In this document: positions 56,479 to 59,252 of the stretch, in pieces
Layout: each line of letters starts with the position of its first letter
How positions within the stretch are numbered: the stretch's first letter is position 1
Assembly (NCBI GenBank): GCA_023657465.1
Contig: JAGTJX010000001.1
Location: 524,358 to 588,357, forward strand
Direction of reading: 5' to 3'
Source: Lysobacteraceae bacterium
Lineage (GTDB): Bacteria; Bdellovibrionota; UBA1018; JAGTJX01
Length of the DNA: 64,000 nucleotides
Notes under the pieces: model-generated
The model's input: only the letters and a program-made list of their open reading frames with translations
Database searches by the model: none
Told to the model about the DNA's origin: nothing
Program-made: the position numbers and the translations under genes

Positions 56479-56602
56479 TACAAAATTTATACTAGTAGTT
56501 CAATTGCTGAACCACTTTCAGACTTCTAATCAAACTTATCCAACTGCTACATAGGCATAGTTATTGCTTTTGGGATTTGTAACCAAACTGAGCAGAGTAG
56601 AT

Positions 56603-56632
56603 GGAGTTTGACTCCTTTCCAAACGAAAGGAG
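56603..56632 (+). promoter_or_regulatory. two mutually exclusive hairpins controlling a Shine-Dalgarno
   Basis: CTCCTTTC (56612-56619) pairs perfectly with GAAAGGAG (56625-56632), which contains the AGGAGG Shine-Dalgarno of the small frame at 56639. The same CTCC also pairs with GGAG upstream as GGAGT-TTG-ACTCC (56603-56615). Only one stem can form at a time, so the leader could switch between closed and open. Confidence 0.55.
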
Positions 56633-56638
56633 GCTTAT

Positions 56639-56776
56639 ATGAATAATAAAGGCGTGAAGCACCGTTATTATACGTATCGGCTGAAACTAGAAAAACTTAA
56701 GCGGAACACATGGCAACTCGTCGTCATTGCACGTGCTCTTCTTTTTCTAGATATAATCCTTCACCATTTTTGGTGA
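56639..56776 (+). CDS. 45-residue basic/hydrophobic small protein
   Basis: The start is set by AAAGGAGG six bp before the ATG, one of the best ribosome sites in the window. The N-terminal half is strongly basic (MNNKGVKHRYYTYRLKLEKL) and the C-terminal half hydrophobic (WQLVVIARALLFLDIILHHF), enough for one membrane helix. Size, charge and the occluded ribosome site recall type I toxin peptides or small regulatory membrane proteins; no relative is recognised. It sits in a 429-bp gap between the glycosyltransferase gene and the secreted-protein cluster. Confidence 0.5.
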   Translation: MNNKGVKHRYYTYRLKLEKLKRNTWQLVVIARALLFLDIILHHFW

Positions 56777-56790
56777 ATCACTGCTAGTGA
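56760..56790. repeat. two adjacent hairpins at the end of the small frame
   Basis: TTCACCA-TTTT-TGGTGAA (56760-56777) and TCACT-GCT-AGTGA (56778-56790) follow each other directly, the first spanning the stop codon. No T-tract follows. They suggest a structured transcript; the following 118 bp (to 56907) show nothing I can name. Confidence 0.45.
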
Positions 56791-56907
56791 CGATAAATTG
56801 AGGCGGCTTCGGGTGCAGCATTAACCTGGAGCTCTCAAGAAGAGGACTGCTCAGTTTGGCCAATAGTTCTTAGCTTTTTGCAGTGATGAATAGATGTAAA
56901 ACTAGAG

Positions 56908-57141
56908 CTAGTTACAGGCAGCTTTGGCCAAATCGAAATTCGAAGAACTGTAGTTCGATAGATATGCTTCGATGCAAAGGGCTTGTCCTTCAGTTACTTT
57001 TTCACAGGCTTTTTTAGATAAATTGAAATTCGAAGAACTGTAGTTTGCTAAATAAGCTTTGATACAAATTGCCTCGCCTTTTTCTACTGCGTAAGCATTG
57101 ATTGTCAAAAGCATCAACATTCCAAAAATAACTTTTTTCAT
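56908..57141 (-). CDS. small secreted protein with two tandem repeats
   Basis: 77 residues: a signal peptide (MKKVIFGMLMLLTINAYA) and then two near-identical units of about 26 residues, GEAICIKAYLANYSSSNF and GQALCIEAYLSNYSSSNF, each followed by a helix ending in K/A-x-A-C. Each unit carries two cysteines, likely forming one disulphide in the periplasm or outside the cell. No family recognised. The upstream region holds the double inverted repeat at 57156-57188, shared with the gene at 58375, and the signal peptide is also similar (MKKVIFGML versus MKKIIFGIL). Confidence 0.75.
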   Translation of the reverse strand: MKKVIFGMLMLLTINAYAVEKGEAICIKAYLANYSSSNFNLSKKACEKVTEGQALCIEAYLSNYSSSNFDLAKAACN

Positions 57142-57155
57142 ACATTTTCTTTCTT

Positions 57156-57188
57156 TTGGTCAAACGACCAATGTTTAATTTCTTAAAC
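57156..57188 (-). promoter_or_regulatory. double inverted repeat, copy 1
   Basis: TTGGTC-AAAC-GACCAA (57156-57171) and GTTTAA-TTTC-TTAAAC (57173-57188) lie one base apart, 15 bp before the ATG at 57141. The same pair, slightly changed, precedes the gene at 58710 at the same distance. It could be an operator pair or a leader hairpin pair. Confidence 0.6.
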
Positions 57189-57220
57189 TTAGTGCAAACG
57201 CGGACCTGCTTCTGATTTTT

Positions 57221-58279
57221 TTATTTAAAATTGTAAATGCAGCTAGCGTAACTCTCACCCCAAGAATCCTTATAGTTCGAGTCAGGATAATCCTTACTCC
57301 AAGATTCCTTGCGTGTTTTCGCCTCATAACTAACCCGAACACGAAATGGGTTAACATAGACCACTCTTAATGTTTCATCTCGTGAAACCTTATTCTTTTT
57401 TGCATAAAGATCGTAGCCCTTATAATTATAATTTCCAGAGCCACTTAGGACATAGCTATCACTTCTCATTTTAATGCCTTCGGGCTTTTTGGTAAAATGA
57501 CTGATTTTTACTGACTCAGAATCTGGCCCGTTGTTTCTATCCTCTCCTCCAGCCAATTCGAATTTTCTTCCATTAAAAATGACGTAGGTATCTTTAAGTT
57601 CAGAATATTGCGAACGAAAGAAATCAAACTCTTTCGGACAATTATAGGTATCTGGTTCCAAAGTGCCACGAAAGTTACGAAAGAATGCAACAACACTCTC
57701 GTCTTTAAGCGCTGATAAAATACTCCAACGTTGGGCGCGAAGAGAAGGACCTTTATTCACAGTGGCTGCATCAGCAGCTGCTTCCACAAAAAGAGGAGGT
57801 ATAAAACTTGATTTCATCCGCGTCTCAAATCGGTTATCCGGATGACCATAGAGTATACCTAAATTCTGACTAGAGCTTATCCCCATCACTTGATCTGTAG
57901 CAGTATCGATTATTTCAACATGAACAGCGGCGTTTAAAAGATCTCCCCCATCTAGCATTGAAAGTATTCCCTTCCAGTAAAGAACAAGATCAACAACAAG
58001 TTTGCCTTCAAGTTTGCTTTTTGTACCAGGTTCTATGCGACTTTCTGCCTCTTGAGTGACTGAGTCCAAATGATTAAGAACTGCAGAAATTTCATTGCGA
58101 TAATATTGAGTAAATGAAGGGCGTTTATTGGCGTTATAAATCTCGCTTGAGTCACCATTTGACCAGTGAACACGCAATTCATAGTCAAGCTTGGTTGCCC
58201 CTAATGCATGAGTGCTGCTTGTAAAAAGTGCTGATAAAATAAATAACGTTAAATAAAGCTCAGTAGTCATTTTCTTCAT
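57221..58279 (-). CDS. hypothetical exported protein
   Basis: No family recognised. 352 residues with a signal peptide (LYLTLFILSALFTSSTHA, residues 7-24). The rest is mixed alpha/beta with many Asn, Asp and Ser: HWSNGDSSEIYNANKRPSF, EGKLVVDLVLYWKG, and a C-terminal region rich in Tyr/Lys/Ser (SDSYVLSGSGNYNYKGYDLY), ending in one of only two cysteines. GGAG lies in good position before the ATG. A 46-bp block upstream (58303-58348) is almost identical to one before the gene at 59063. Confidence 0.75.
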   Translation of the reverse strand: MKKMTTELYLTLFILSALFTSSTHALGATKLDYELRVHWSNGDSSEIYNANKRPSFTQYYRNEISAVLNHLDSVTQEAESRIEPGTKSKLEGKLVVDLVLYWKGILSMLDGGDLLNAAVHVEIIDTATDQVMGISSSQNLGILYGHPDNRFETRMKSSFIPPLFVEAAADAATVNKGPSLRAQRWSILSALKDESVVAFFRNFRGTLEPDTYNCPKEFDFFRSQYSELKDTYVIFNGRKFELAGGEDRNNGPDSESVKISHFTKKPEGIKMRSDSYVLSGSGNYNYKGYDLYAKKNKVSRDETLRVVYVNPFRVRVSYEAKTRKESWSKDYPDSNYKDSWGESYASCIYNFK

Positions 58280-58302
58280 AGGTTTTCTCCGCTCCTCAAC
58301 TC

Positions 58303-58348
58303 AATATTTAAAATCTAGTCGCTATGTAACAATCCTTTGCTTTAGTGT
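58303..58348 (-). repeat. 46-bp duplicated upstream block, copy 1
   Basis: Forty-four of 46 bases match the block at 59092-59137, both 24-29 bp before the start of a secreted-protein gene. The shared core includes AATATTTAAAATCTA and GTAACAATCCTTTGCTTTAG (plus strand). It is followed by a CTTTAGT / ACTAAAG inverted repeat (58339-58366). Probably a promoter region copied together with the genes. Confidence 0.7.
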
Positions 58349-58374
58349 GTACGACACGAACTAAAGATCAGGGG

Positions 58375-58710
58375 TTAAAGTTTCTCCAAAATGCTAGAAC
58401 ATTTCGATGTAGCGATATCACGTGCATGTTCAATTGCTGCAATGGCTGGTGTTTCAAAGTCAAAAGAAGAAGCTTCGCTCTCAGGCGCTACGGCGGACTT
58501 CTCTAACAGAACGCGTAAAGGGTTGTATTCAGCTTTAATCTTATAACCGTATAGCGTGACTGTGGCTAAAACGTCTCGGCCGTGCTTTCCATTGTTATGA
58601 AAGCAAGGGCGATTGATGTATGTGCGTTCAATAACGCAATGGTGATATTTTGGTTCTGCAAATGCTGAAACCGTGGACATTGCTAATATTCCAAAAATAA
58701 TTTTTTTCAT
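58375..58710 (-). CDS. small secreted protein
   Basis: 111 residues. Start at 58710 (MKKIIFGILAMSTVSAFA, a clear signal peptide) because GAAGGA stands at the right distance; a frame opening 81 bp earlier adds a basic tail. The mature part has YHHCVIERTYINRPCFHNNG with two cysteines close together and a third near the C-terminus (ATSKCSSILEKL). No family recognised. The leader and signal peptide resemble those of the gene at 56908, while the mature domains do not. Confidence 0.75.
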   Translation of the reverse strand: MKKIIFGILAMSTVSAFAEPKYHHCVIERTYINRPCFHNNGKHGRDVLATVTLYGYKIKAEYNPLRVLLEKSAVAPESEASSFDFETPAIAAIEHARDIATSKCSSILEKL

Positions 58711-58724
58711 AAACTTCATCCTTC

Positions 58725-58756
58725 TGGTCAAATGACCAACGTTTAATTTCCTAAAC
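58725..58756 (-). promoter_or_regulatory. double inverted repeat, copy 2
   Basis: TGGTC-AAAT-GACCA (58725-58738) and GTTTA-N6-TAAAC (58741-58756), 15 bp before the ATG at 58710. In both arms of the first repeat the pairing is kept although the loop differs from copy 1 (AAAC versus AAAT). Confidence 0.6.
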
Positions 58757-58820
58757 TTGGTTCGATACCCTTTGTTAACTTTAGTGCGCATGAAAAGAGC
58801 TAAAGATCAGAGATTTTATA

Positions 58821-59063
58821 TTATTTCTTCGCGATTACGCAGACAAGAGTTCGAATACCGTTAGTGCCCCACCCAACACTTGTAACAGAAATAATCTCAG
58901 AGTATCCGGCATCAGCGCTTTCTTTAATCGTATTGTCAATTAGCTCTTGGTACTTCGTTTCATCTCCGCTCAAGTAGTCTTTTTTGCACGTAGTTACTGT
59001 ATCGGCAGCAAAAGCTGTGGAGAATGAAGTTAACGAGATTAGTATTAAAGCTATTTTTTTCAT
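58821..59063 (-). CDS. small secreted protein
   Basis: 80 residues: signal peptide MKKIALILISLTSFSTAFA, then a 61-residue mature domain with two cysteines (TVTTCKKDYLSGDETKYQEL and RTLVCVIAKK), probably one disulphide, and a C-terminal strand. No family recognised; the shape is like small periplasmic DUF1471/YjfN-type alpha-beta proteins, but this is only a guess from size. The 46-bp block at 59092-59137 lies upstream. Confidence 0.7.
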   Translation of the reverse strand: MKKIALILISLTSFSTAFAADTVTTCKKDYLSGDETKYQELIDNTIKESADAGYSEIISVTSVGWGTNGIRTLVCVIAKK

Positions 59064-59091
59064 TTTTATTATTCCTCTTAAATTTATATCT

Positions 59092-59137
59092 AATATTTAA
59101 AATCTAATCGCTGTGTAACAATCCTTTGCTTTAGTGT
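59092..59137 (-). repeat. 46-bp duplicated upstream block, copy 2
   Basis: Differs from copy 1 (58303-58348) at two positions only, both G/A. It lies 29 bp before the ATG at 59063. Beyond the block the sequences diverge. Confidence 0.7.
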
Positions 59138-59252
59138 CTATTGGTAAAAGGTTGATTTTATCAAAGTGCATTGCGTTAACCATGCAAACCAGCATTGACT
59201 CTCGCGTATCTAATCAGTAGTGTGACCCCACAATTTATAGGGGGTATCGGCT

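Follow-up and report, generated by a model that had tools for sequence, protein, structure and literature searches.

Common promoter-like and leader-like elements before unrelated, predicted exported proteins in a bacterium of the Bdellovibrio lineage

Introduction

What does a locus represent in which four adjacent genes encode predicted exported proteins with no resemblance beyond their signal peptides, yet carry upstream elements that alternate between two recurring types? The genes in question occupy the minus strand from 59140 to 56908 of the window, by which we mean the whole stretch of 64,000 nucleotides that was analysed. A sequence-only reading of this DNA had proposed a two-gene unit that was duplicated once, with the control regions kept and the products replaced or strongly diverged, and had suggested that the products are exported factors under common control. 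We followed these proposals from the cluster into the rest of the genome (2.83 Mb in four contigs), which was the only member of its family to turn up in our searches. The census of elements given below is based on genome searches together with a few inspected stretches.

The cluster, its products and its repeated elements

The four genes described in the sequence-only reading are present as open reading frames of the lengths given there (80, 111, 352 and 77 codons), and each has a signal-peptide-like start; signal peptides were called by a simple rule, as were all export predictions for the cluster and the genome. On the minus strand, the 80-aa gene (58821–59063) is followed by the 111-aa gene (58375–58710), whose start was chosen after the upstream element, then by the 352-aa gene (57221–58279), and finally by the 77-aa gene (56908–57141), whose product contains two repeats of about 30 residues (internal repeat D1). 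Each of these repeats has two cysteines, and a NYSSSNF core is common to both. Family searches with the four proteins returned nothing above a family cut-off. The 352-aa protein is an orphan, with no match in Pfam, NCBIfam or PDB; a peptide scan across the genome collection and a comparison with 368 further genomes from the phylum likewise yielded no homologue. No anti-phage families were found among the cluster proteins, and structure prediction without an alignment gave mean pLDDT values of 33 for the 352-aa protein and 49 for the 111-aa protein, with no usable fold. The 80-aa protein had NCBIfam matches to toxin B subunits (E = 0.03–0.09, 13–14 bits, with cut-offs near 200) that were confined to residues 1–40, and these were judged to reflect chance similarity of signal peptides. 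A phage origin of the cluster was dropped, as phage records gave no match. The module is AT-rich, with 38.1% G+C compared to 43.9% in windows of the same size. Elsewhere in the window, the flagellar protein FliD is mostly 52–57% identical to MAG proteins labelled Bdellovibrionales, Bacteriovorax and Oligoflexia.

The alternation of upstream elements along the minus strand, in the order A-B-A-B, was described correctly and is far above chance. Element A is a block of 46–49 bp, and its cluster copies, at 59092–59140 before the 80-aa gene and at 58303–58351 before the 352-aa gene (repeat D3), are 94% identical over 49 nt; a genome search recovered the second copy at E = 4.6e-15. Element B contains two hairpins in each copy, for example GTTTAAGAAATTAAAC and TTGGTCGTTTGACCAA, and a ribosome site. 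Its copies on the minus strand, at 58693–58761 before the 111-aa gene and at 57125–57193 before the 77-aa gene (repeat D2), show 75% identity over 69 nt, signal-peptide start included, and the second was recovered at E = 1.9e-17 in a genome search and at E = 1.1e-9 with R1, the model of this element. A third common piece that the sequence-only reading did not mention, the separator CTGATCTTTAG...CACTAAAG, directly follows the stop codon of the 80-aa gene and that of the 111-aa gene, again on the minus strand. The copy after the 80-aa gene (58779–58815) is 78% identical to the copy after the 111-aa gene (58340–58376; repeat D4), which overlaps into the second copy of element A and is the best match of the separator model, R2. 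No terminators were found between the four genes on the minus strand; two terminator-like matches correspond to the plus-strand reading of element B, and such matches were no commoner in the cluster than in shuffled sequence.

Genome-wide occurrence of the elements

The sequence-only reading had proposed a genome search for further copies of the elements, and this search placed element A before two more genes and B-type leaders at about a dozen loci outside the window. Both additional A copies are on contig C3, at a distance of about 370 bases from each other, and the genes behind them, of 96 and 134 codons, encode predicted exported proteins. The 233-codon gene that precedes them has a B-type leader, giving the order leader-A-A in this array. 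At all four of its sites, element A is conserved at the sequence level over 31–49 nt, 20–28 nt 5' of the start codon, and shows no clear pairing. Model R1 found eight genome sites at E < 1e-3, every one of them before a signal-peptide protein of 77–153 residues, with differing mature parts. Separators and a longer relative of about 125 nt are present at additional genome sites (model R2 and a further search), and another intergenic type, around CGCAATATCTTGGTCATCCAAGAAACGGTGC, stands before the second gene at four loci.

A model of the leader, R3, recovered its seven training loci as well as C3:40198 (2.3e-9), C4:263450 (7.9e-8) and C4:439139 (2.9e-5). Further matches were found at C2:528867 (3.9e-4) and C3:72118 (1.5e-3), and weaker ones include a trypsin-like protein at C3:328515 (0.017). 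Taken together, the two models give 15 distinct B or leader sites with E < 0.005 in at least one of them, and 13 of these precede a predicted exported protein; in the other two cases, a membrane-protein-like ORF (C4:263450) or an IS (C4:439139) comes next. Against a lenient base rate for export of 16 in 49 window genes, the probability of at least 13 exported proteins in 15 by chance is about 2e-5, an arithmetical figure that is biased by the R1 sites. Because R1 contains the ATGAAAAAA start and so favours signal-peptide genes, the leader model, which ends before the start codon, is the fairer test. At least 17 predicted exported genes bear elements if the four A sites are counted in.

The cargo of these loci is diverse. 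Comparison of the mature parts, all against all, produced no match better than E = 0.06, and a Pfam family was absent from most of the cargo proteins scanned, the exceptions being a trypsin encoded by the second gene of the C4:724k locus, the weaker trypsin-like protein, and a subtilase whose gene follows a sigma-54-like site. The claim that upstream elements were kept and cargo was not is thus borne out, as the mature parts share no similarity within the cluster or genome-wide. The wider proposal of exported factors under common control holds in outline, given the unrelated cargo and the predominance of predicted exported proteins among the B and leader sites. The refuting case named in the sequence-only reading, elements found genome-wide before unrelated genes, is largely avoided, with two leaders that have no exported gene directly behind them.

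A sigma-54-like promoter and a structured leader

Most of the stand-alone B elements are preceded by a sequence of the form TGGCACGTTATGTGCTTTATA, which has the GG-N10-GC spacing of sigma-54 promoters (-24/-12). With three or fewer mismatches, this pattern occurs at 17 genome sites, compared to one for the reversed pattern, and 10 of the 17 lie before predicted exported proteins. Another of these sites lies upstream of the gene for a response regulator of the NtrC type that carries a sigma-54 activation domain (L111 2913–4361, contig C2), and this gene also has ACATTGG right before its start codon. RpoN is encoded in the genome (E = 2.2e-65), and the sigma-54-like promoter is found in all seven of the aligned leaders. 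These observations suggest that sigma-54 drives the stand-alone leader loci, and the NtrC-type regulator on C2 is a candidate for the activator of the set.

Within the 300 nt upstream of the first gene of the window cluster, the best sigma-54 score was about -4, and the training sites scored between 14 and 32. At 59182, a GG-N10-GC match (TGGTTAACGCAATGCACTTTG) was considered as the cluster promoter and rejected, with a score of -5.3 that is reached at 376 window positions. The tie between the window cluster and the sigma-54 loci consists only of the B elements, plus element A by way of the C3 array. This tie is consistent with co-regulation of the cluster with those loci, and element A, the best candidate in the window, may be the promoter there.

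The leader itself is about 100 nt long, and the segment that starts with the promoter and closes with the small hairpin aligns at 107–110 nt across seven loci, almost without gaps. Its parts follow a set order: promoter, a stem of at least 13 pairs, a second stem CCGAG..CTCGG, AAACATTGG, and often TGGTC-N4-GACCA before the ribosome site. In the alignment of seven related copies, the long stem is 89% paired and has two-sided changes in 5 of 13 pairs, and its covariation score was higher than those of all 500 shuffles and of all slid versions. The evidence for conserved pairing with compensatory changes in this stem is therefore good but, with seven related copies, not final. The small TGGTC..GACCA hairpin had no two-sided changes, and for this reason could equally be a DNA operator. 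An Rfam search of the cluster and ten element-bearing loci gave no relevant match, and the leader model found nothing at E <= 0.01 in 54 other genomes of the order, so that among 55 genomes it matches only this one.

Interpretation and alternatives

With a little better than even confidence, we regard the cluster as belonging to a lineage-specific set of exported orphan genes that are dispersed over the genome and share a non-coding kit, which at other loci would comprise a sigma-54 promoter and an mRNA leader. The set is probably switched on together, and we would class it, from sequence, as a lineage-specific regulon with its own leader RNA. At the other loci, transcription from the sigma-54 promoter would begin about four nt before the stem-loop of at least 13 pairs, as judged from the position of the promoter, and this long 5' stem-loop would shield the 5' end of the mRNA against decay. 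One or two small hairpins would adjoin the ribosome site, and the leader as a whole would act as RNA on mRNA stability or translation. Shortened versions of the kit in intergenic positions could serve the gene that follows. In the window, element A is most likely the promoter of each gene pair and element B the structured leader of the second gene of the pair, which would yield either two two-gene transcripts or one four-gene transcript. The products may act outside the cell, perhaps when the bacterium feeds on others.

A bolder proposal is that the kit constitutes a gene-arming system, in which one promoter and leader, along with the short intergenic versions, are placed on many unrelated exported orphans, producing a coordinated and fast-changing secretome directed at other bacteria; the leader RNA would then represent a new family of cis-regulatory elements. 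We offer this tentatively and consider it somewhat doubtful.

Alternatively, the elements could be DNA operators and ordinary promoters of a regulon, with the hairpins serving as palindromic sites for a dimeric repressor or activator and with no role for RNA. The palindromic TGGTC-N4-GACCA, which lacks two-sided changes, and the preservation of element A as sequence without clear pairing both agree with this explanation. However, the long stem of the leader stays paired despite changes in sequence, G-U pairs included, and has a fixed place in the predicted transcript; several copies of the small hairpin also contain G-U pairs, which break the symmetry of the DNA. We therefore judge operators without an RNA function to be unlikely.

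It is more improbable still that the elements belong to a mobile or recombining repeat, either MITE-like or a cassette site, that spreads between genes and has little to do with expression. The separators do lie between a stop codon and the following gene, an IS end is found inside or beside four elements, several loci adjoin toxin-antitoxin-like genes, and the low G+C content of the module (38.1% against 43.9%) would fit such an origin, but the elements keep a single orientation and a near-constant spacing to the start codons, they contain promoter-like, leader and ribosome sites, and their stems are maintained through compensatory changes.

Least probable, and in our view very hard to sustain, is the original proposal of a two-gene unit that was duplicated once and whose cargo diverged later, since the A-B-A-B order and the similarity of signal-peptide DNA within both supposed duplicate pairs (z = 4.6 and 6.2) are set against separators that recur per gene rather than per pair, signal peptides that are also alike between the 80-aa and 111-aa genes (z = 4.2), mature parts of the supposed duplicates whose alignments score like those of shuffled sequence (z about 0.1), and different combinations of elements elsewhere, such as leader-A-A on C3. 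With respect to the separators, the one between the 80-aa and 111-aa genes matches the next one, between the 111-aa and 352-aa genes (z = 9.5), and does not match the one two genes apart, between the 352-aa and 77-aa genes (z = 0.7). Assembly of single genes with a common kit of parts would be the simpler reading.

The dispersed set with a common kit would gather isolated orphan genes of a Bdellovibrio-lineage bacterium about which little is known into one group that is recognisable from its sequence, and the leader marks predicted exported proteins that family searches missed. If the proteins do act on other bacteria, the leader would offer a way to catalogue new proteins with antibacterial or feeding roles. 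The set also raises the question of how one promoter and leader came to precede so many unrelated genes.

Comparison with known systems

One published account presents sigma-54 (RpoN) as governing the exterior of the bacterial cell, including the synthesis and transport of surface molecules and flagella (PMC3162934). The set described here resembles those regulons in its GG-N10-GC promoters, in the presence of RpoN and an NtrC-type activator, and in products that concern the outside of the cell. It differs in that the products are mostly orphan exported proteins with a common structured leader, and in that the window cluster has no recognisable site. A hairpin at the 5' end can stabilise mRNA by hindering conversion of that end (review PMC3997798), and the stem-loops of ompA and papA are mRNA-stabilising examples cited in that review. 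They share with our loci a stem-loop, predicted in our case, a few nt from the mRNA 5' end of a gene for an exported protein, whereas here one leader, known from sequence, is common to many unrelated genes and continues into further hairpins.

In the related lineage of Bdellovibrio bacteriovorus, a single alternative sigma factor likewise controls the attack-phase regulon, whose genes include those for proteases and surface proteins, but this regulon has a FliA-type promoter, TTAAG-N16-CCGATA, which is not the one found here, and the consulted portion of that paper was not found to describe a shared leader RNA (PMC3627812). Within an incomplete coverage of the literature, we found no direct precedent in Bdellovibrio for secreted proteins that form a sigma-54 regulon, and no description from this lineage of a common leader RNA in front of exported proteins that are unrelated. 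Integron cassette arrays also combine unrelated small genes with related inverted-repeat elements directly after the stop codon, whereas the loci here are scattered and most have their own promoter and leader. Integron cassettes were considered for this geometry and tentatively set aside, as no attC cores (RYYYAAC / GTTRRRY) were seen on inspection of the separators.

Mobile-element traces and longer separators

Directly downstream of the cluster, positions 56583–56859 of the window hold a MITE-like segment of 277 bp with perfect 13-bp inverted ends (CCAAACTGAGCAG). In the C3 array (L005, around 5169), the stretch that separates two genes contains a related end and inner piece. Among the element-bearing loci, which were the ones examined, one IS end (GATAGCGTCCGAAAGTCCTTGGTACAATTTTCACTTAAC) recurs at four (L010, L067, L096/L113 and L090/L112), where it is either within a promoter, leader or separator of the set or immediately behind one. 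Toxin-antitoxin-like genes, recognised by eye from the ORFs, adjoin loci L008, L009, L010 and L005, and are of AbrB/PIN, YefM/PIN, HTH and Fic-like types. The longer separator form of about 125 nt (L049, L050, L048 and L010) has at most 96% identity between loci, and its 5' CCTAATC is able to pair with either of two 3' partners.
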